A stretch of 36,757 nucleotides of DNA, from the NCBI RefSeq assembly GCF_937871615.1, contig NZ_CALMPA010000047.1, positions 1 through 36,757 of the forward strand, written 5' to 3'. Below the pieces are notes generated by a model. That model made no database searches. It was given only the letters and a program-made list of their open reading frames with translations, and had not been told where the DNA came from. A program made the translations under genes and the position numbers. Below are positions 8,504 to 32,711 of this stretch, in pieces (position 1 is the stretch's first letter; every line of letters begins with the position of its first letter). Source of the stretch: an uncultured Sphingomonas sp. (GTDB taxonomy: Bacteria; Pseudomonadota; Alphaproteobacteria; Sphingomonadales; Sphingomonadaceae).

Positions 8504-9712
8504 TCAAAACCTACCTGTTCGCATCGCCCGTTCGATCGCGATTCCGATCGCCTCCGCCGCCTCCAACAGGTGCGCGTCCTCGAAATGGGCGTACCGAGAT
8601 GTGGATTTGACCGTAGCATGTCCGAGCAGCCGACCGATCATAGGCAGACTCTCCCGGCCCATCACGGCGTGGCTGGCGTAAGTATGCCGCAAATCGTGAG
8701 GCCTGACGTCCTTCAAACGAGCCTCATCGCGAAACTTGACCCAAGGGCTTTGGATTGTCTGAATTGGTCGATGACAGCGCCAATTCCAGAAAATCCACGG
8801 ATTCTTGCCGCAGCGCGGTAGGGCAAGGATCAGGTCGCGCGCCTCGTCACCCAGCCAGACGGTTCGCGGGCCGGTCTTGCTGTCCCGGAGGTTTAGGCGG
8901 AGACCTTTAAGGTCCGACCATTGCAGGGAAAGAATTTCACCAACCCGGCATCCTGTCAGCGTTAGCAGCAAGATCGCCGAGGCATAGGCTTGCTCTGTTC
9001 GGTCCTCACCTGCACGTGCCTTGGCCAGGACTGCTCCAAGTCGGGCCAACTCGTCATCGGACAGGAATCGGTTGCGATGGTTTTTCCGGTTCTGCCGGAT
9101 TCCATAGCAAGGGTTCGTGTTTTCGACGCGATACCCCCATTCTTCCGCCTTGTTCAGTGCGGCGCGCAGGATTTCAAGGCAACGGTTTGCCGCGCCGGGG
9201 CCAGACTTGTCGGTCAGGGCGACGAACCACTTGGTAACTTCGGCCTCGCTCAAACTATCCACGAACGCTTCCGGGAAGGCGCCGTCGATATGGCTCCGGC
9301 GATAGCCCGTAGCTGTTTCCTGCGTGGACGGCTTCCAAGCTGGGGAACACTTCTCCCAATACTCCCGCAGAAAGTCGTCCATGCGCGGTGCATTGCGAAC
9401 GCGCTGGCGCGTAGTCGCCGGATCGTGACCAACACGGGCGTGGGCAAGAACCTGGCGCGCCACCATCACCGCTTGATGCCGCGTGAGGACTGACGCCGGA
9501 CCTATCGTAATCGTCCGAACCCGCCCGCCCATCCGCGTCTGAACGATGTAGACATGCCGACCACTGGGGTAGTGGCGGATGCCGAACCCGTTCTCCACGG
9601 CAATCCAGGTGGTCGTTCGCGCCTTGCCCTTCGGTGTCTGCGACAGCTTCGGATTGACGCCGATCTCCGCAAGCGCCTTTTCGACGATTTGCTTGAGCGA
9701 GAGGCTGGTCAT
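8504..9712 (-). CDS. Tyrosine recombinase/integrase (second of a tandem pair)
   Basis: This is a phage-type integrase of 402 aa. The catalytic set is visible: Arg256 (TGCRVGEILSL), Lys279 (DSKTGPRTVWL), His339-x-x-Arg342 (HDLRHTYASHAV), His365 (LLGHATVKST) and the nucleophile Tyr374 (SRYAHF). An N-terminal beta arm-type region (about 30-75) precedes a SAM-like core-binding domain (about 108-205). The open frame extends 79 codons further upstream, but the ATG at 9712 is chosen because it overlaps the TGA of the upstream recombinase as ATGA. All catalytic residues are present, so it should be active. It is followed by cargo genes in the same direction. Confidence 0.93.
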   Translation of the reverse strand: MTSLSLKQIVEKALAEIGVNPKLSQTPKGKARTTTWIAVENGFGIRHYPSGRHVYIVQTRMGGRVRTITIGPASVLTRHQAVMVARQVLAHARVGHDPATTRQRVRNAPRMDDFLREYWEKCSPAWKPSTQETATGYRRSHIDGAFPEAFVDSLSEAEVTKWFVALTDKSGPGAANRCLEILRAALNKAEEWGYRVENTNPCYGIRQNRKNHRNRFLSDDELARLGAVLAKARAGEDRTEQAYASAILLLTLTGCRVGEILSLQWSDLKGLRLNLRDSKTGPRTVWLGDEARDLILALPRCGKNPWIFWNWRCHRPIQTIQSPWVKFRDEARLKDVRPHDLRHTYASHAVMGRESLPMIGRLLGHATVKSTSRYAHFEDAHLLEAAEAIGIAIERAMRTGRF

Positions 9713-11022
9713 GCGGACAGGCCCAATGATCCAGCGATTCCGCTCGAAACACGCGAAGCCGCGTCGGCAATCGTCTCGTCGGCCAGGTGGGCATATCGTG
9801 CGGTCGTTTCCGGCAAGACGTGTCCCAGCAGGCCGCCGATGGTCGCAAGTGGAACCCTCTCCCTTATCGCGACCGAGGCGAAGCTGTGGCGAAGATCGTG
9901 GATGCGGACATCCGGCAAGGCGCAGCGCTTGCGGAAGGGAAACCACCAATTGTCGATGTTGACGGGGCGCGCGCCGGACTGGTTGGCGAAGACGTATTTG
10001 CTGTCTTCCCGTCTTTTGATCCCTTCCACGATCTTCACGGCCTGGCTGTTGAGCCAGATGGTCTTAGGGCCGGTCTTGCTGTCGGGCAGGAGAAGACGGG
10101 GCAATTGGACCCAGTCCCATTCCAGGTCCCGAATTTCTCCAATGCGCGCGCCGGTAAAGATCAGCAGGCGTGTAACCGCAACCTGCGCCGGATAGGTTGC
10201 CTCGTCAGCGTCCAGCTCTCGGGCCAGACGGCGGAACTCCTGGGGGCAGAGGTAGCGCTCCTTCGGCTTGGTCTTGAAGCGCGGCATGCCCCGGCAAGGA
10301 TTCGAGCCCTTCCGGACATAGCCAAGCTGGGCGGCGTACTTGAACATTGCCGCAAGGACCGGGACAGCACGGTTGAACTTGCCCTCGCTCACGTTCGCGC
10401 AATCGTCGCGCCAACGCACGACGTCGGACTTGCCGATCAGGTCGATCCGCATCTTCCCAAATCGCGGCATCAGGTCGCGGTTGATCGCATCCAGGTTGCG
10501 CTTCTGGGTCGATCCCTTCCAATGCCGTGCGTAGTCGGCCCAGAATTCATCGGCGTAATCCGAAAACAGAGGAGCGACCTTCACCGCCACCCGGCGTGGC
10601 AAACCATCGAGCGCGACTTCGGCGAGGCGCTTACGCGCCTCGCCCCGAGCGGTCAGGGCATCGACCTCGTCGACCTTGCCCAGCGAGACACGGCAATGCC
10701 TGCCGCGTCGCCGCACCCGCACGAACCAGTAGCGATTGCCCGATGACCGGACTCGCATTCCAAAGCCTGCAAGCTCCGCATCCCAGATGACATAGTCACT
10801 GGGTGCGGGCGGCATCTTCCGGCGAGCCAGATTGCCGTCAAGGAATGCCCGGTTCCCGGGCAAATGCCGCTTGGGGACCATATAGCCATCAGAACTACCG
10901 GAACTGCTCGACAAAGTCTCGGAATTATTGCCAATTCTGGGGACCAGGCAGCCATCAGCAGCAGTCAAGCTGTCGAGGGCTTCCAAGGTTGCCTTAATTG
11001 ATTTTGCTGCACTTTTTCCCAT
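9709..11022 (-). CDS. Tyrosine recombinase/integrase (first of a tandem pair)
   Basis: This 437-aa integrase has an N-terminal arm-binding region of the DUF4102 style (ELAGFGMRVRSSGNRYWFVR at about 83-102), a core-binding domain (about 150-245) and a complete catalytic domain. The active residues are Arg293 (TGARIGEIRDL), Lys316 (DSKTGPKTIWL), His375 and Arg378 (HDLRHSFASVAI), His401 (LLGHVLPETT) and Tyr410 (ARYAHL). The first ~75 residues are low in structure and Ser-rich, so a later start is possible. It is about as divergent from its partner as two unrelated family members, so this is not a simple recent duplication. Translation of the second recombinase is coupled through the ATGA at 9709-9712. 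Confidence 0.92.
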   Translation of the reverse strand: MGKSAAKSIKATLEALDSLTAADGCLVPRIGNNSETLSSSSGSSDGYMVPKRHLPGNRAFLDGNLARRKMPPAPSDYVIWDAELAGFGMRVRSSGNRYWFVRVRRRGRHCRVSLGKVDEVDALTARGEARKRLAEVALDGLPRRVAVKVAPLFSDYADEFWADYARHWKGSTQKRNLDAINRDLMPRFGKMRIDLIGKSDVVRWRDDCANVSEGKFNRAVPVLAAMFKYAAQLGYVRKGSNPCRGMPRFKTKPKERYLCPQEFRRLARELDADEATYPAQVAVTRLLIFTGARIGEIRDLEWDWVQLPRLLLPDSKTGPKTIWLNSQAVKIVEGIKRREDSKYVFANQSGARPVNIDNWWFPFRKRCALPDVRIHDLRHSFASVAIRERVPLATIGGLLGHVLPETTARYAHLADETIADAASRVSSGIAGSLGLSA

Positions 11023-11249
11023 TTTTGCGACTTAAGCCGCGTAGGGTGTGCTAATCCCAAGAGCCCGATCCCCTGTCCCTGGGTCTGTCTTGATGTCGTC
11101 GGAGAGGAGCCGGTTGCCGGGACCGGCGAGTTACGCGCCGCCGTAAGGCGGAACGCGCGAGGCGGGCGTCACCGATCCGATCAGGGTGGGAAAAGCCCCG
11201 AAGCACAGCATCAACGTCGGCCAAAGGGCCGCGTTGGAAAGGCGAGGAT

Positions 11250-11710: not shown

Positions 11711-11743
11711 CGGTCATGGGGGGCTCGATGCCCCCCATGACCG
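11711..11743. terminator. Perfect 14-bp stem-loop between convergent genes
   Basis: CGGTCATGGGGGGC pairs perfectly with GCCCCCCATGACCG around a TCGAT loop. It lies between the convergent genes ending at 11680 and 11793, so it probably serves as a bidirectional terminator. A GC-rich half-palindrome (CCGCGG..CCGCGG) lies just before it. Confidence 0.7.
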
Positions 11744-11756
11744 TTCCTCTCCCAGC

Positions 11757-11785
11757 AAAAAAAGGGAGAGGCCGTAGCCCCTCCC
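11757..11785 (-). terminator. Rho-independent terminator for the 75-aa gene
   Basis: On the minus strand a 9-bp stem (GGGAGGGGC/GCCTCTCCC, one G-U) with a TACG loop is followed by seven T. It lies 8 nt past the stop of the gene at 11793. Confidence 0.82.
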
Positions 11786-11792
11786 CTGTCGT

Positions 11793-12020
11793 TCAGAACT
11801 CGTCGATGATGCCGCCCGGCGCGGTGTAGACGATCCGGTCGATCATCGCATGTCCGAGCGCGCCGTAGTCGCCCTCGTCGATGGCGAGGAACCCCAGCTC
11901 ATCGTCTTCGACCACATGCTGGTCGAAGTAGCTGTGCATCGCGCGGCGCTCGGCATTGGCGACGGCGGCGAAGTAGGCGGCGTGCTGATCGGCGGCGGCG
12001 ATGTTCGTGATCGTCTGCAT
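11793..12020 (-). CDS. Small hypothetical protein, 75 aa
   Basis: The family is not recognised. The protein is acidic, with a helical N-terminal half (ADQHAAYFAAVANAERRAM) and a hydrophobic C-terminal half (LGHAMIDRIVYTAPGGIIDEF). It is supported as a real gene by AGGAGA 6 nt before the ATG and by an intrinsic terminator right after the stop. Structured element E1 lies 38-211 nt upstream of the ATG, which may affect expression. It stands alone as a transcription unit convergent with the coiled-coil gene. No signal peptide or membrane helix was seen. Confidence 0.72.
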   Translation of the reverse strand: MQTITNIAAADQHAAYFAAVANAERRAMHSYFDQHVVEDDELGFLAIDEGDYGALGHAMIDRIVYTAPGGIIDEF

Positions 12021-12057
12021 GTTCGTCTCCTGTCGTCTTGAATGACAGGGGAATGGC

Positions 12058-12231
12058 GTCGGGCGGGCGGGACCGTGTCAGGCCTCGCCGGCTTGCCGGC
12101 GACCGCGAAGCGGCGGTGGGGGTCACGATTTTCTTCGGCGGCCACCCCGGCCGCCGATGATGCGCAGCGCCCGCTCCGCCGAAGAAAATGGTGGGGCCCC
12201 GCCGGGCTTGAGACGGTCTCGTCCGCCCGAC
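12058..12231 (+). ncRNA. Candidate structured element E1 (copy 1 of 2)
   Basis: This 174-base element shares architecture with 14812-14945. Its outer stems are GTCGGGCGG/CCGCCCGAC and GACCG/CGGTC. Next come the single-strand marks TGTCAGG and, at the other side, CTTGAGA, which flank the inside. A hairpin TCGCCGGC-TT-GCCGGCGA (12085-12102) follows. Then comes a perfect 14-bp stem from 12128-12141 to 12176-12189 (ATTTTCTTCGGCGG), enclosing GCGCAGCG. The plus strand is chosen because the G-T pairs of the sister copy would be lost on the other strand. It may instead act as DNA (cruciform or binding site) or as a leader of the minus-strand gene at 12020. Confidence 0.5.
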
Positions 12232-12649
12232 AGAATGGGAAGACTGTGAGAGATTTTTCCTCTCAGGCGTGCGCCACGGCAATGCGTAGCGACGCGCGAG
12301 CTGACGGGTCCGTGCGGTACGCAAGCGAGCCAGAGAGTCCCTGCGTCGTGACGCATTTTGGGCGGCCCAGCGTCACCAATCGTAACGTTCGATTTTCGGC
12401 GGACCACCAACCTCCCTGATGGATTAACAATTTGGCTGTGGGCAAGGGTCCATCGAGCCGAACTCACTTCATCTTGGTGCGACGATCGGTCTGTGTTAGG
12501 CGCGGGGTTGCGCTGCGAAGGCTGCGGCGCCGGGACTGGTAATCCCGTCGAGAAAGGCAACTCGGTGTGATCTCACGCCGGGGTGCCTGCGCATATGTCC
12601 AGGTGCCTCGGTGCTAAAAGCGTAGGCGCATGTCTCGACGTGTTACCAG
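12232..12649. other. Gene-free spacer
   Basis: No convincing gene is present. A small hairpin, TGAGAG/CTCTCA with a T-rich loop, sits at about 12246-12264 just after E1. Open frames on either strand here lack ribosome sites and have atypical composition, so they were not called. Confidence 0.5.
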
Positions 12650-12686
12650 CCCCGGCTCCCGCGCTCAGCGCGGGAGCTCTCCGGGG
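12650..12686. promoter_or_regulatory. Long GC-rich hairpin upstream of a small gene
   Basis: CCCCGG pairs with CCGGGG on the outside, and GCTCCCGCGC with GCGCGGGAGC inside, around a TCA loop. It ends 27 nt before the ATG at 12714. No T-run follows on the plus strand, so it is more likely a leader structure or factor-binding site than a terminator. Confidence 0.45.
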
Positions 12687-12713
12687 AGGAGCGACGGCCC
12701 GGAAGTTTCCAGG

Positions 12714-12902
12714 ATGTATCGCGCTCGAGGCGGCGAAGTGGACACTTTTGAAACCGACCCGACGATGACGCGGGCGCTTGCGCTGGCATTGATGCGCCAG
12801 GCGAAGGAGTATCTGACGGCGACGAAGGATGGCGATGCCGCCGACCAGTTGCAGCGCGCGATCGACACCCTTCTGACACCGCGAACGCCGGTCGCAGCAT
12901 AG
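12714..12902 (+). CDS. Small hypothetical protein, 62 aa
   Basis: The family is not recognised. The chosen ATG has GGAAG 8 nt upstream; an open frame extends 28 codons further back, but that part has low-complexity composition and no ribosome site. The C-terminal 45 residues form an amphipathic helical hairpin (ALALALMRQAKEYLTATKDG, then DQLQRAIDTLL), typical of short regulators or anti-factor proteins. The gene sits alone on the plus strand between E1 and the convergent minus-strand gene at 12975. Downstream of a strong hairpin, its expression may be conditional. Confidence is moderate because the only support is the ribosome site and protein-like composition. Confidence 0.5.
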   Translation: MYRARGGEVDTFETDPTMTRALALALMRQAKEYLTATKDGDAADQLQRAIDTLLTPRTPVAA

Positions 12903-12974
12903 GCGCGGAAAAGCATTGCGGTGCGCGCCGCACGCGGCGACGCGTCCCTTTCCGACGTCTGGTCCGTGCGGAGG

Positions 12975-13553
12975 CTAAGCCCATTGCAGACGGGAACTGT
13001 CGTCGAGACTTCCGGTCGCGATCAGGCGGTCGAGCCGGGACAGATATCCGGCCGCACCCTGCGCTTCGACGCTGCGGCGGATGGCGGGATCAGCGAGGCG
13101 GGCGCGGACATTATCGACCGGGATTTCGCCGACGCTGTCCGGCTGCAGTCCCAGTCCTTCGAGCAGCGCAAATGCGTTCTGATAGGCCAGATCGAGTTCG
13201 AGGGCGAGATCGGAGGTCAGCCCGACCGACAGGGTGATCGGGCCAGTGTCGCCCTCGCGATAGACGCTGACCCGGCGGCCGCGAAACTGGGCCTCATCCA
13301 GCACAGTGATGACATCGGTCTGATAGTCGAAGATGCGCGCGATGCTGGCGAGCGCCAGCGGGCAGACGCGCGCCTCGAACCGGTAGGAGAGATAGTCGTC
13401 TTCCGCGAAATCCGGGTCCAGCAGGATCGTGTCGAGACGCTCGCCCTCACGGCGCAGGAATTCCCGGAAGGCGGCGAGCTCGCGGGCGTTGATGACGGCG
13501 GTCTGGCGTTCCTGATGGTCGGCCGATGTGGTGATGCGAAATACAATGGACAT
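12975..13553 (-). CDS. Conserved hypothetical protein, 192 aa
   Basis: This protein is not assigned to a named family. It looks soluble and globular: an N-terminal strand (MSIVFRITTSADHQER), then helices with charged patterns (ARELAAFREFLRREGERLDT), then LSYRFEARVCPLALASIARIF, and a C-terminal helical region (IRRSVEAQGAAGYLSRLDRL). The start is supported by GGAGGA 5 nt upstream of the ATG. It follows DUF2493 in the same direction, but a terminator lies between them, so it has its own promoter somewhere in 13554-13669. Function unknown; the context suggests a mobile-element housekeeping role. Confidence 0.72.
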   Translation of the reverse strand: MSIVFRITTSADHQERQTAVINARELAAFREFLRREGERLDTILLDPDFAEDDYLSYRFEARVCPLALASIARIFDYQTDVITVLDEAQFRGRRVSVYREGDTGPITLSVGLTSDLALELDLAYQNAFALLEGLGLQPDSVGEIPVDNVRARLADPAIRRSVEAQGAAGYLSRLDRLIATGSLDDSSRLQWA

Positions 13554-13669
13554 CTCGTCCTCCCTTGCTGAACGCAGCGCCCATTCCCTCTCCCCTCTGA
13601 CCGCATTGCGGGGCGAAGTCGGCGCGATCAGCGGGCCATTGCGTGAGCGCGCCAGCGCTCAGTCCCCGA

Positions 13670-13702
13670 CGGCGCGAAGGGGCTCGATGCCCCTGAGCGC
13701 CG
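13670..13702. repeat. Stem-loop with GGGGCTCGATGCCCC core
   Basis: CGGCGC pairs with GCGCCG outside and GGGGC with GCCCC inside, around TCGAT. The same core and loop occur in the terminator at 11711-11743. It is probably a terminator-like intergenic repeat. Confidence 0.45.
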
Positions 13703-13715
13703 TATCTCCACGCAG

Positions 13716-13755
13716 AAAAAGATGGAGAGGCCCCGGCCGAAGCCGGAGCCCCTCC
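13716..13755 (-). terminator. Rho-independent terminator for the DUF2493 gene
   Basis: On the minus strand a 14-bp stem with two G-U pairs closes a TTCG tetraloop and is followed by ATCTTTTTC. It starts about 10 nt past the DUF2493 stop. Confidence 0.85.
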
Positions 13756-13765
13756 AAGCGAGCGC

Positions 13766-14740
13766 TCACGCGCTGCGCTGGGTGCGCTGGTGCGCGAGGC
13801 GGACGATGTGCAGCGGCACCCCGGCCTGCCGCAGCTTCTGGGCGAGGTTCTGCTGGATGCCGGAGCCTTCGCAGATGACGGCTTCCACCGGCTTGAGACC
13901 GAGGATGCGGTCATTGCGGACGAAGGCGGCGCGGTTGCCCTGACTGCGATCGAGGCGGAACTGGATGACCTTGACGCCGCGCGACGCCGCCCATGCGTGC
14001 GCCACGGCATCGCAGCCTTTGGCCTGCGCGGTGGTCGCGAGGATCATCTCCGGGATGCGCGCCTTGATGCTGTCGAGACCGTTCCAGAGCAGGTCCGCGT
14101 CCTCCCACACCTGACCGCCGGAGAAGGCCACGACCGGGCCTTCCGGGGCGAACTGCTCGCGCCGCTCCCGGGCGCGGGAGGCGAGATAGTCGCGGGCTTC
14201 GATCATCGACGCGTTGAGGGCGCTGGAAACCCGGCTTCCCCGCACTGGCGAGAAGGGCTTGCCGGTTTCGACACGATAGACCTCGGCAGCGTGGTCACGC
14301 ATGCATTCCATCGCCTCGCGGCAACCCTGCAGGGTCTGGCAGAGGAGCTGGGTATCTTCGAGTTCAGTCGCGTAGATCTCGGACGGATCATAGCTGCGTG
14401 CGAGATCGCCGAGCTTCTTGGCGGCGTCATCCTCGCGGCCCTCGATGCGCTTTGCAACGACGTGGAAGCTGTTGGCGAAACCCCATGCCAGGTCGGCCGC
14501 GAACGGCTCCATGCGGGTGTCGCGCAGCACGTCGAACATGGTCTGCATCATCATCTCGGTGGCGGCCCGCACCTGCTCGGGATCGGGCATGTCGAGCGCT
14601 TCCGGCGCCTCGACGATGCTGAGCTTGGCCATCTCGCTATGTTCGATGAACGCGCCCTCGTAGGTCTGGGTCAGTCCGTCATTTTCACGCGACGCGGCGA
14701 CGAAACTGGCAAGGTCGGCGAAGTTGTTGAAAGAAGTCAT
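13766..14740 (-). CDS. DUF2493 (SLOG-type) domain protein
   Basis: This 324-aa protein has an N-terminal helical region of about 200 residues and a C-terminal DUF2493 Rossmann-like domain. That domain starts near residue 205 with VVAFSGGQVWEDADLLWNGL and continues with ILATTAQAKGCDAVAHAWAA, GVKVIQFRLD and AVICEGSGIQQNL. DUF2493 belongs to the SLOG superfamily, thought to bind nucleotides or nucleotide-derived signals. The long N-terminal extension is usual for the plasmid/ICE versions. The start is well supported (GGAGG 5 nt before the ATG). An intrinsic terminator ends the gene, and element E2 lies 72-205 nt upstream, so it forms a single-gene unit with a structured upstream region. The role on mobile elements is unproven. 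Confidence 0.85.
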   Translation of the reverse strand: MTSFNNFADLASFVAASRENDGLTQTYEGAFIEHSEMAKLSIVEAPEALDMPDPEQVRAATEMMMQTMFDVLRDTRMEPFAADLAWGFANSFHVVAKRIEGREDDAAKKLGDLARSYDPSEIYATELEDTQLLCQTLQGCREAMECMRDHAAEVYRVETGKPFSPVRGSRVSSALNASMIEARDYLASRARERREQFAPEGPVVAFSGGQVWEDADLLWNGLDSIKARIPEMILATTAQAKGCDAVAHAWAASRGVKVIQFRLDRSQGNRAAFVRNDRILGLKPVEAVICEGSGIQQNLAQKLRQAGVPLHIVRLAHQRTQRSA

Positions 14741-14811
14741 AAAAGCCTCCGAACAAGTCGATCTCTCATCCGGGATTGGATGAAAGATGAAATCTCATCG
14801 GATGGGCCGAC

Positions 14812-14945
14812 GGGGCTTTGTCAGGGACGCGGGGCTTGTCCCCGCGCCGCCTCGGCGGGGCGTGGGGGAACCGATTTTCTTGGGGCCAGAGCGCAGCGAC
14901 GGTCCCGGGAAAATTGGGGGGACCGCGCATCCTTGAGAAAGCCCC
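14812..14945 (+). ncRNA. Candidate structured element E2 (copy 2 of 2)
   Basis: This is the sister of 12058-12231. The outer stem GGGGCTTT/AAAGCCCC is flush against the same inner marks TGTCAGG and CTTGAGA. A hairpin CGCGGGG/CCCCGCG (14828-14846) occupies the place of the TCGCCGGC hairpin in E1. The 14-bp stem 14874-14887 to 14901-14914 has eleven Watson-Crick and three G-T pairs and encloses the same GCGCAGCG. Bases differ from E1 while pairing is kept. The three G-T pairs would be A-C mismatches on the minus strand, which favours a plus-strand transcript. It lies upstream of the minus-strand DUF2493 gene. Confidence 0.52.
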
Positions 14946-15104
14946 CAAAGGCACATCACACTACGGCGATGAAGCTTGTCTGATACCGAGATGTTAGAGA
15001 GAGAATTGGATTTGCCCCGGCCGCGCCAGCGGGCGGGTTAACAGCAAATCGCTCCTGACTGATCAGGACGAAACCCCTCCCCAAATCGCCCCTCGCAAGG
15101 TGAT

Positions 15105-15934: not shown

Positions 15935-16255
15935 TCAGAAGAAGTCGATCTTGTCGGCGATGATCTCGCAACCGTACCGGGTGACGCCGTCGCGATCCTC
16001 CCAGCTCGAATAGTGCAGCCGGCCGGTGATGGCGACGACATCGCCCTTCTTGCGCGAGGCACCGGCCTTGCCGAGGCCGTTGAAGCAGGTGACCTTGTGG
16101 AACTCGGTCTCCTTGGCGGTGTAGCCGGTGGCCTCGTCGACATAGGTCTTGCCGTCCCTGAGCTTCACGTGATCGGTCGCGACGATGAGGGTGGTGACGG
16201 CGCCGCGGGTTTCGGGGTCCTTGGCAACGCGGCCGGCGAGATTGACGTTGTTCAT
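15935..16255 (-). CDS. ssb: Single-stranded DNA-binding protein (short, element-type)
   Basis: This 106-aa OB-fold protein of the SSB family coats single-stranded DNA during replication or transfer. The N-terminal MNNVNLAGRVAKDPETR is followed by EFHKVTCFNGLGK and GDVVAITGRLHYSSWED, the usual SSB order. It lacks the flexible acidic tail and DDDIPF-type tip that recruit partner proteins in chromosomal SSB, ending instead at IIADKIDFF. It is therefore likely an element-encoded version. The open frame continues 25 codons upstream, but the ATG at 16255 has GAGGAG 8 nt before it. No neighbouring gene overlaps; the first upstream gene is 400 nt away. Confidence 0.86.
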   Translation of the reverse strand: MNNVNLAGRVAKDPETRGAVTTLIVATDHVKLRDGKTYVDEATGYTAKETEFHKVTCFNGLGKAGASRKKGDVVAITGRLHYSSWEDRDGVTRYGCEIIADKIDFF

Positions 16256-16654
16256 GGTAGTGCTCCTCGTTGGGTCCAGCGGCCTTCCCGCCGGTGGCAC
16301 CGAAGAGCGGCGTGCGGAGACGGCCCGCACCGGAGCGCCAGCGGAGGGGAACCCCTGGCGGGAGTTGGCGCGGGCAGCCGCGCAGCGGCAACACGGGCGA
16401 CCGGAAGGGGTTGCGGGACGTCTTCGTCTCGCCGCAGGTGTCAGGAACAGGCGAAGGAAGGCCGCAGGTCGCAGCGCGGCTCTATCCGGTGGACGATGTC
16501 GCGCTGCGCTGCCGATGGTCCGATCTCACGCCGGAAAGAACGTATGGCGCCGCTCGAACAGCGATCAGACAGGCCGGCACCTTTGGGTCGACGTGTGCGG
16601 AACGCCACGTCCGTGTTCTAGGTCAATCGGCGATGCTGCCCGGCCGAGACGGCC
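16256..16654. other. Gene-free spacer upstream of SSB
   Basis: About 400 bases of GC-rich sequence. A 437-aa plus-strand open frame crosses it but runs antisense to three well supported genes and is not accepted. The SSB promoter should be here; no clear -35/-10 pair was found. Confidence 0.5.
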
Positions 16655-17803: not shown

Positions 17804-18316
17804 TCAGTCCGCCATTTCGGGCGTGCGCCGACGGCGACCGTTGCCCTGGGCGGGCTCGCTGCCGAACGCGCCTGCGGCCGAGGATTCACCCAGTCCGTCA
17901 GGGCCAGCGGGACCGTTCGGCGCAGCCGGCTCGTCCGCGCCGGGCAGCGGCGGCAGACCGTCATCGGCCGCAGCGGTGTCGGTCGGCGCATCCCGACGGC
18001 GGTTCGGCCGCGACCAGACGATGTTGTACGAGCCGTCCTCCTGGCGGAAGGCCGAGATGTAGAGCGGCTTGTCGAGGCTGGGATCCTCGATCTTGCCGTT
18101 GAGGAACATCTCGCCGGTCGAGTTGGAGGACAGTTCGAAAAGCGCGCCGACCTGGACCCACTGACGGGCAGCCGAGAGCGCGAGGATCTCGAACTTGGGT
18201 GCGCGCGGGTTGGCGGACTGGACGGTGCGCAAGGCGATGACGATGGCGACCGTGAGGGTCGAGATCTTGCCGGTGTAGGTGCCGCTGGCGTTCTGGGTGA
18301 TGGTGCCGATGTTCAT
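17804..18316 (-). CDS. DUF736 family protein with disordered tail
   Basis: This 170-aa protein has an N-terminal DUF736 domain (about 1-105), a small beta fold common on alphaproteobacterial plasmids and ICEs but without a proven function. Key blocks are MNIGTITQNASGTYTGKIST, FEILALSAARQWVQVGALFE, EMFLNGKIEDPSLDKPLYIS and SYNIVWSRPNRRR. The last ~65 residues are rich in Pro, Gly, Ala and Asp and probably disordered. CAGGAGA 6 nt before the ATG fixes the start over the open frame's first Met (18361). DUF736 often sits near conjugation or partition genes, which fits this context. It is ended by the stem-loop at 17720. Confidence 0.88.
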   Translation of the reverse strand: MNIGTITQNASGTYTGKISTLTVAIVIALRTVQSANPRAPKFEILALSAARQWVQVGALFELSSNSTGEMFLNGKIEDPSLDKPLYISAFRQEDGSYNIVWSRPNRRRDAPTDTAAADDGLPPLPGADEPAAPNGPAGPDGLGESSAAGAFGSEPAQGNGRRRRTPEMAD

Positions 18317-31672: not shown

Positions 31673-32614
31673 TCATGCCGCCTGCGGGATTGGCGCCACG
31701 GCCTCGGTCGGTGCCTCGATCCCGCTGCCGTCGCCGAAGGCGAGCAGGTAGTTGAAGGCTTGTTCGGCCTTGGAGGAGGCGTGGATGATCGCGGTCTTGT
31801 CGGCGCGCAAAATGCCGAGCCAATGGGCAACGTAGCTCGCATGATTGTCATGCAATTCGTTGGGCAGGCCCAGATTGGCGCAGATCAGGCCGCTTCCGAT
31901 CTCGGCCACGAGCTCTTCGAAACTATAGGCTCGATCGCCGAACCTTTTGCCGAAAGTCCGCGCCAGGCGCGAGCTACCGCCTGACCAATGCACGGTCTCG
32001 TGCGCCCTCACCGATGCGTAATGATCCATCGTGGTGAATGACCGGCGATGTGGCATCTGGATGTAGTCGAATGTCGGGTGAAAAAAGGCCCGGTCGCCGC
32101 CATGACGAACCTCGGCCGGCACCCGGTCGAAGAACTGGTCGATGGCGCATTGCCGGGCGGATGGATCGATCGGCGCAAGCGCCTCGGCGTCAGGGTAGAA
32201 ATAGGCCGGGAGCCCGTCGATCTGATCGGCGTTGAACACGAGATAGTGCCTAAGAAAGCGGATGCTGCGCTCGCTCTCGGCACCGGTTACGGGGTCCGCC
32301 TCGGTCTTCTTGAAATTCGAGTAGTAGACGGAAAGCGACCCGTGCTCGCCGCGGCGGACATGGCCGCCAAGCGCTTCGGCCTGGCGGTAAGTCATCCAGA
32401 AACGCGAGCGATAGCCGTTCGCGTCCGCGATCGCCCAGAGGTAGACCGTGTTGATGCCCGTGTACGGCGTGCCGCAATGGCGCAGCGGACGGCCACCGGC
32501 ACCGGCCACGCGCCAGGGCCGGGTCCAGGGCGGAACGCCCTCCTCGAGCTTGCGGATGATGAGATCAGTGATTTCGGCCGCGACATCGCGGCTCGGACGG
32601 GCTTTCACGGACAT
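31673..32614 (-). CDS. ArdC-type anti-restriction protein (zincin-like)
   Basis: This 313-aa protein matches the ArdC family. The N-terminal domain (DVAAEITDLIIRKLEEGVPP, PWTRPWR, GTPYTGINTVYLW) binds single-stranded DNA in studied members. The C-terminal metallopeptidase-like domain has HETVHWSG, giving the HExxH at 205-209, and Glu238 in FEELVAEIGSGLICAN. ArdC proteins protect incoming DNA from restriction during conjugation. GGAG lies 8 nt before the ATG at 32614. It is 97 nt downstream of the large ParB-like gene and belongs to the same leftward run. Confidence 0.9.
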   Translation of the reverse strand: MSVKARPSRDVAAEITDLIIRKLEEGVPPWTRPWRVAGAGGRPLRHCGTPYTGINTVYLWAIADANGYRSRFWMTYRQAEALGGHVRRGEHGSLSVYYSNFKKTEADPVTGAESERSIRFLRHYLVFNADQIDGLPAYFYPDAEALAPIDPSARQCAIDQFFDRVPAEVRHGGDRAFFHPTFDYIQMPHRRSFTTMDHYASVRAHETVHWSGGSSRLARTFGKRFGDRAYSFEELVAEIGSGLICANLGLPNELHDNHASYVAHWLGILRADKTAIIHASSKAEQAFNYLLAFGDGSGIEAPTEAVAPIPQAA

Positions 32615-32711
32615 AGCTGATGCTCCGGCGAGGTGAGGATGGTTCGGGCACGGGCGGGGACGATCTGACCATCGGCGGTGACGCGAGGTGGATCGCCCCT
32701 CCCCCACCAGG

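Follow-up and report, generated by a model that had tools for sequence, protein, structure and literature searches.

Folded single-strand DNA elements in the leading regions of alphaproteobacterial plasmids: a family of candidate Frpo-like promoters

The stretch of DNA analysed here (the window; 36,757 nucleotides [nt] of contig NZ_CALMPA010000047.1 from an uncultured Sphingomonas sp.) carries two copies of a structured element, at positions 12058..12231 (copy 1) and 14812..14945 (copy 2) of the plus strand. Judging from the sequence and by analogy, each of them is, with high probability, a candidate single-stranded DNA (ssDNA) promoter that would work like Frpo of plasmid F and belongs to a separate alphaproteobacterial family. 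The preliminary description of this DNA had proposed a conserved RNA or cruciform family. Its conserved structured family is retained; an RNA is not the best reading, because neither a plus-strand RNA nor a cruciform explains the promoter boxes found on the 3' arm. Folded ssDNA is the better reading because, where this can be tested, the strand that folds is the strand transferred in conjugation (T-strand). Only as folded ssDNA does the plus strand turn these boxes toward the neighbouring minus-strand gene.

Fold, distribution and covariation of the element

Both stretches singled out in the preliminary description are present in the window and share a fold plan as plus-strand ssDNA. Folded as single-strand DNA, 12050-12240 and 14800-14955 each give an outer stem (P1), a helix between GTCAGG and CTTGA (P2), side hairpins, and a long arm. 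One side hairpin has a variable sequence (P3) and the other is small (P4, e.g., CCGC-GAA-GCGG); the long arm consists of P5, a G-rich internal loop, the A/T helix P6, and a variable tip, P7. These folds agree with the order of parts and the helices originally described for the two copies, and the pairing then suggested between TCAGG and CTTGA appears as a helix in both. In copy 1, P1 joins 12058-12076 with 12213-12231, and P4 is the small extra hairpin at 12103-12113, between the GC hairpin and the long arm. The fold z-scores are -6.05 (copy 1) and -3.28 (copy 2) on the plus strand and -4.99 and -1.67, respectively, on the minus strand; copy 1 thus folds well on the minus strand too, if less well than on the plus strand.

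The element is a member of a large alphaproteobacterial plasmid family, and because this family occurs on 17 other plasmids, the fold of the two copies is more than chance. Searches of PLSDB with blastn find copies in 44 and 135 plasmid records, and an Agrobacterium copy used as the query finds 672 records (Rhizobium, 264; Agrobacterium, 195; Sinorhizobium, 73; and others). Seventeen plasmid regions were taken for study, and 28 copies, picked by hand from the 33 known at that stage with near duplicates and one broken copy omitted, were aligned (alignment A1) and used to build the covariance model R1. A scan for the motif pair matches 36 times in the real sequences, as compared with 5 times in total over five shuffled sets. 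Removal of two shifted duplicates and a likely chance match (L010, 30786) and addition of L009 22361-22480, found with R1, gives the 34-copy set used below. At E < 1e-9, R1 finds 34 copies in the window and the 17 plasmid regions, 28 of them the seed itself, all on the plus strand; only the further copies tell about strand, because each region had been oriented by one match.

In 18 whole records, F included, the 35 R1 matches fall within 17 records, 11 of which have at least two copies; the search of plasmid F gives no match. Copies within one whole plasmid record lie on the same strand and close together. CP000700 contains two clusters of copies, and its typing includes two MOBF relaxases. 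R1 also matches all five of the Ti C58, At C58, Rhizobium etli p42d, Methylocella, and Xanthobacter plasmid records (E ≤ 0.01). Searches of sampled species genomes used strict filters, which makes the counts lower bounds: R1 matches are found in at least 143 of 397 genomes of the window's family (E ≤ 1e-6), at least 17 of 82 genomes of another family, at least 11 of 385 genomes of the class sample (E ≤ 1e-4), and at least 17 of 398 genomes of the phylum sample (E ≤ 1e-5), all 17 inside the class. The window's own genome is counted in the class, window-family, and phylum samples and not in the other-family sample. Neighbouring copies at most 25 kb apart on genome contigs share a strand in 36 of 36 pairs and in 8 of 8 further pairs, a count in which some contigs repeat plasmids already counted. 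A phage search gave no match to the element.

The genome of the window encodes a third copy on another contig (L022; C45 43555-43716, 65 bits), in which the standard -35 anchor was looked for and not found. L009 27991-28106 is a minimal copy, with the variable arm reduced to a tiny tip (CGATTTGCGAAGCAAATTGG), suggesting that the tip of this arm is dispensable.

Both window copies are seed members, with R1 matches at 12065-12223 (copy 1, 77.4 bits) and 14808-14948 (copy 2, 120.2 bits); the minus strand of copy 2 itself reaches 24.1 bits. Copy 1 diverges from the rest of the family, with G·G where 27 of the 28 alignment rows have G·T, a wobble of the A/T arm. At 12118-12200, its sequence (ACGATTTT/AAAATGGT) differs from the family consensus. 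A scan of the window with Rfam 15 gives no matches at gathering score. Relaxed Rfam settings give only weak matches, and the two that overlap the copies, both far below threshold, were rejected: MIR7510 at 12109-12207 (plus strand; 21 bits, threshold 93), which overlaps copy 1, and BcKCsr2 at 14822-14934 (minus strand; 17.1 bits, threshold 40), which overlaps copy 2. A possible third window copy upstream of the gene for the single-stranded DNA-binding protein (SSB), at 16347-16444 (R1 16.2 bits, E 3.3), was not accepted either. This region and L002 21341-21443, at only 16.2 bits with R1, possibly represent a decayed or a different element.

The 35 consensus pairs of the 28-row alignment have 93.3% of their cells paired (75.8 ± 0.9% after shuffling), 24 of them show changes on both sides (15.2 ± 1.2), and the covariation score is 0.422 (0.130 ± 0.011). 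None of 500 shuffles reaches the observed value on any of these three measures, which ignore the relatedness of the rows; with slid structures, the share of paired cells drops to 34-49%. The observation that pairing is kept while bases change is confirmed.

The alignment also shows which strand is folded. G·T fills 93 of its cells and A·C fills 6, with G·T ahead of A·C in all 28 rows. A wobble is retained in three pairs of columns (G·U 20 and A·U 8; U·G 15 and C·G 11; G·U in 27 of 28). With DNA parameters, the plus strand folds better in 34 of 34 copies, by a mean of 11 kcal/mol, and in all 28 copies of a hold-out set. The latter comes from 73 loci, 35 of them reoriented because they were minus-strand matches; 40 were left aside because their similarity to earlier loci exceeded 0.85, and 5 had no anchor (L022, L042, L047, L059, and L087), so that the 28 copies kept are at most 0.85 similar to the earlier ones and yet belong to the same family. 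The excess of G·T over A·C and the better plus-strand folds show that selection for folding has acted on the plus strand, in line with the early indication that it is the functional strand. A stable, strand-specific single-strand fold is a feature of the Frpo-type promoter class.

Promoter boxes, transferred strand and downstream genes

The 3' arm displays a fixed order of parts: an A/T-rich AAAATT, CTTGA[C/G] (the -35 box) within P2, the 3' strand of P1, [C/T]ANN[A/C]T (the -10 box), and mostly GG. In alphaproteobacteria, promoters have CTTGAC as their -35 consensus, and GGGA makes a favourable discriminator. In copy 1, the -35 box TTGAGA (12208..12213, plus strand), part of CTTGAGA, overlaps helix P2; it is followed, with a spacing of 17, by the -10-like box CAGAAT at the base of P1 (12231..12236, plus strand) and a GGG discriminator (12237..12239, plus strand). 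Copy 2 has the same TTGAGA in CTTGAGA (14933..14938, plus strand) and, with a spacing of 18, the -10-like box CACACT (14957..14962, plus strand), after which comes ACGGC, a poor discriminator. The places assigned to the two elements in the preliminary description are right, whereas their 3' reach has to be extended by about 5-22 nt to take in the -10 boxes. P1 frequently stops at the -10 box, e.g., in window copy 1 and in L007, L010a, and L012a.

Over 61 copies (33 of the first set and 28 of the hold-out set), the -35 bases are C in 56, T in 61, T in 61, G in 58, and A in 56, the -10 box has A2 in 58 and T6 in 61, and the spacing is 15-20, mostly 15 and 17-19; the fold would rebuild a -35 box and a weak -10 box at proper spacing. 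The -10 box was scored as the best one 14-20 nt after TTGANN, leaving out L013 18033, which has no -35 anchor. In the 33 remaining copies of the first set, the mean best score is 4.96, as compared with 3.70 ± 0.14 for shuffled flanks and 2.71 for the mirror position on the 5' side (its shuffles, 3.08), and the 3' arm is higher in 33 of 33. The hold-out copies score 5.03 (shuffled flanks, 3.41 ± 0.16; mirror, 2.50), the 3' arm being higher in 28 of 28 and A2 and T6 being both present in 27 versus 2. GG follows the -10 box in 27 of the 33 copies of the first set and at 4 mirror positions. CTTGA[CG] sites elsewhere in this DNA score 3.07 (n = 596; A2 and T6 in 143), versus 5.0 for the elements (Mann-Whitney p = 7e-29). 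The -10 box was not selected by the search, because the seed alignment stops 12 nt after TTGA, before this box. Complementarity in P1 is 10.0 with the own partner and 3.1 with swapped partners.

An F-like nic core of the origin of transfer (oriT), GCGTAGGGTGTGCTAATC, is found at 11039..11056 on the plus strand of the window, which implies that the T-strand is the plus strand, running right. The nic cores and cut sites that served as queries are taken here to be the F-like and Ti-type sequences. The F-like core is exact in the window and at L002 16231 and has 2 mismatches at L003 16442 and L018 15753 and 3 at L012 14361, in each case on the plus strand. It is placed between the TraI/TraD operon and the first element; in the window, integrases replace that operon. 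One set of shuffled sequences gave no such core. In L006 and L008, a Ti-type core with 1 mismatch is found on the plus strand between traA and traC; L005 has a weak plus-strand match (2 mismatches) beside traA. The nic-core search covered the window, L002, L003, L005, L006, L008-L012, L014, L015, L018, and L019; in L009-L011, the T-strand could be oriented only from the side on which the relaxase operon lies. Where this can be tested, the plus strand appears to be the T-strand, leading 5' to 3' from oriT into the elements, because the nic cores lie on the plus strand to the left of the elements. This places the elements in the leading region, on the transferred strand, in the window, L002, L003, L012, L018, L006, and L008 and, on weaker grounds, in L005. 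In plasmid F, the nic core is on the minus strand of the stretch examined (L019), near traM, and ssb and psiB are on the plus strand; therefore, the T-strand of F is the template of its leading genes.

The same relation holds between the elements and the genes to their left. On that side, a minus-strand ATG that opens a frame of 40 or more codons and has a Shine-Dalgarno (SD)-like site is found 15-110 nt away in 33 of 34 copies; to the right, a plus-strand ATG of this kind is found in 4 of 34. The corresponding hold-out counts are 27 and 2 of 28. At the one exception, L017 19959, an ATG with an SD-like site opens only a short frame. According to the annotation tables, tabulated by hand, all 34 copies have a minus-strand coding sequence as their nearest neighbour to the left, which starts 30-68 nt away in 32; L016 has an unannotated 48-codon frame at its copy. 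The location upstream of minus-strand genes, first described for the two window copies, is thus kept, and the downstream gene has the T-strand as its template.

In the proposed mechanism, the T-strand would enter the recipient as ssDNA, and P1 and P2 would rebuild a duplex promoter with the 3' arm as the non-template strand, the 5' arm as the template, and the -10 box at the open base of the stem. The folded strand would present a duplex -35 box and spacer, an open -10 box, and a single-stranded template leading into the leading genes. Host sigma-70 RNA polymerase might then start on the 5' flank and transcribe leftward, and the leading genes (the 75-amino-acid [aa] open reading frame [ORF], the DUF2493 gene, and those behind them) would be transcribed before the second strand is made. 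In duplex DNA, the boxes point right, away from the gene, so that conversion to double-stranded DNA (dsDNA) would stop transcription of the leading genes. The same RNA could prime complementary-strand synthesis, as reported for Frpo.

Evidence against the promoter reading and alternative explanations

Several observations weigh against this interpretation. The invariant TT of the -35 box was all but required by the anchor rule of the scripts, and the weights of the -10 score were self-chosen and favour A2 and T6, with the controls scored by the same weights. The -10 box is weak, its first base being C in 41 of 61 copies, and in the hold-out set the GG that follows it is less distinctive (22 of 28, mirror 13). 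Copies on related plasmids are not independent. P1 pairing lies above the 95th percentile of swaps in 21 of 33 copies only (12 of 33 do not reach it), and several rhizobial copies have a poor P1. No nic core with up to 3 mismatches was found in L009, L010, L011, L014, or L015, and L006 also has a Ti-like site with one mismatch on the minus strand, at 16582. When the SD condition is dropped, right-side open frames are found in 14 of 34 copies and in 8 of 28 hold-out copies (left side, 33 of 34 and 27 of 28). Finally, the same box scoring applied to F Frpo gave no convincing boxes, and a blastn search with F Frpo (word sizes 7 and 11; E ≤ 0.01) gave no match in the window and 19 plasmid loci.

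Other functions of a folded T-strand have to be considered as well. The element might be a single-strand initiation site, where the folded strand recruits primase or RNA polymerase for priming of the complementary strand and closeness to a gene is secondary. T-strand hairpins do sit in leading regions, and Frpo reportedly primes DNA synthesis, as the title of Masai and Arai (1997) has it. Such a role is compatible with a promoter and not exclusive of it; as an explanation of the family it is rather unlikely, since gene expression fits better with the presence of two or more copies in 11 of 17 records and with the short distance to an ATG with an SD-like site in 33 of 34 copies. The chances of an ordinary double-stranded promoter pointing right, accompanied by an incidental upstream cruciform, are slimmer still. 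The same boxes can be read rightward in duplex DNA, and the right-side open frames counted above would suit such a promoter, but SD-like sites accompany them in only 4 of 34 and 2 of 28 copies, and a duplex has no need for a spacer that pairs with the 5' flank (10.0 with its own partner versus 3.1 swapped).

The two RNA readings are both highly improbable. A structured leader at the 5' end of the minus-strand mRNAs (a riboswitch, attenuator, or thermosensor) would account for the position of 32 of 34 copies, 30-68 nt ahead of annotated minus-strand genes, and for the z-score of -4.99 of the minus-strand fold of copy 1. However, all 34 copies and all 28 hold-out copies fold less well on the minus strand, the wobbles are G·T on the plus strand and so A·C on the minus strand (93 to 6 cells), and the promoter boxes are on the plus strand. 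The plus-strand noncoding RNA originally envisaged, with its promoter to the left, agrees with the plus-strand fold and the covariation but leaves the series of CTTGAC, -10, and GG with its limited spacing unexplained, and Rfam has no match to the window at gathering score.

The leading region of the window and known ssDNA promoters

On the ssDNA promoter reading, the predicted first gene served by copy 1 is the 75-aa ORF (11793..12020, minus strand), which belongs to no Pfam family, and that served by copy 2 is a DUF2493-type gene (13766..14740, minus strand; Pfam YAcAr, SLOG family), named DUF2493 in the related plasmid L002. A 192-aa leading-region ORF (12975..13553, minus strand) also has no Pfam family. 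Beyond the two copies, genes for SSB, DUF736, ArdC, and part of a strawberry-notch-like helicase have the same direction. The SSB gene (15935..16255, minus strand; Pfam SSB), in the leading region, is without a confident element copy upstream; the DUF736 protein (17804..18316, minus strand) is likewise encoded in the leading region, and the ArdC-type protein (31673..32620, minus strand) combines the Pfam domains ArdcN and MPTase-PolyVal. Two alike pairs of inverted repeats, a hairpin with GGGCTCGATGCCC and then a second hairpin, are located at 11712-11787 and 13670-13757, directly downstream of the 75-aa and DUF2493 genes, and look like repeated terminators.

Positions 11031 to 31909 of the window match, in three collinear pieces of 85-92% identity, the leading region of the Rhizorhabdus dicambivorans plasmid p2. 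The homology to p2 ends at 11031, 8 nt to the left of the nic core at 11039. In the place of TraI/TraD of p2, the window encodes two tyrosine integrases on the minus strand (8504-9715 and 9709-11022), an exchange beside the nic core that points to integration or recombination next to oriT.

Frpo1 and Frpo2 of plasmid F fold to rebuild -10 and -35 boxes; they are needed for early expression of the leading genes and are switched off by duplex conversion (PMC9849209). Frpo-like promoters have been detected in leading regions by BLAST from five known Frpo/ssi sequences, along with island candidates (PMC11541004), and PLSDB has been searched with 5 + 13 Frpo-type sequences (PMC12826799). The new family shares with F Frpo1/Frpo2 and the Frpo-like sequences of ColIb-P9 its place in the leading region, a T-strand fold that rebuilds -35 and -10, the use of the T-strand as the gene template, and nearby SSB and anti-restriction genes (PMC9849209, PMC11541004). 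In contrast to F Frpo, described as a stem-loop, its fold includes two side hairpins, a G-rich internal loop that is conserved, and an arm of CCGATTTT/AAAATTGG above the -35 box, which is of the CTTGAC type. With F Frpo as the query, the best 5000 plasmid matches are almost all enterobacterial. The new family thus appears to resemble Frpo in working, whereas homology to F Frpo is not supported by sequence.

The Frpo' and Frpo* of Samuel et al. (2024) are likewise candidate ssDNA promoters in front of leading genes, with -35, -10, and UP elements, but were found by BLAST to five Frpo/ssi sequences and a closer look at four islands (PMC11541004); single candidates among them may overlap with the new family. 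The words alphaproteobacteria and MOBQ are absent from the main text of that paper, and "alphaproteobacteria," "rhizobi," and "sphingo" are absent from the main text of PMC12826799. A literature search, whose scope excluded most subscription papers and all bioRxiv preprints, found no paper on such promoters in alphaproteobacterial plasmids.

A further proposal, more tentative and close to evenly balanced, is that these elements represent an independently evolved class of ssDNA promoters on MOBF and Ti-type MOBQ alphaproteobacterial plasmids, whose direction would reverse in dsDNA. Their junction domain (the two hairpins, the G-rich loop, and the A/T arm) might then do more than display the boxes, e.g., by mimicking an UP element or by providing a docking site for a dedicated factor.

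Single-strand promoters explain how anti-defence and SSB genes are expressed before the second strand is made (PMC9849209, PMC11541004), and two surveys look for them by BLAST with Frpo-like sequences (PMC11541004, PMC12826799). A separate family, defined by a covariance model and its boxes, would make leading regions, the direction of the T-strand, and early genes readable on alphaproteobacterial plasmids, including Ti, At, and rhizobial plasmids. If the promoter reading is true, it suggests that the ssDNA promoter trick arose, or was reshaped, more than once.

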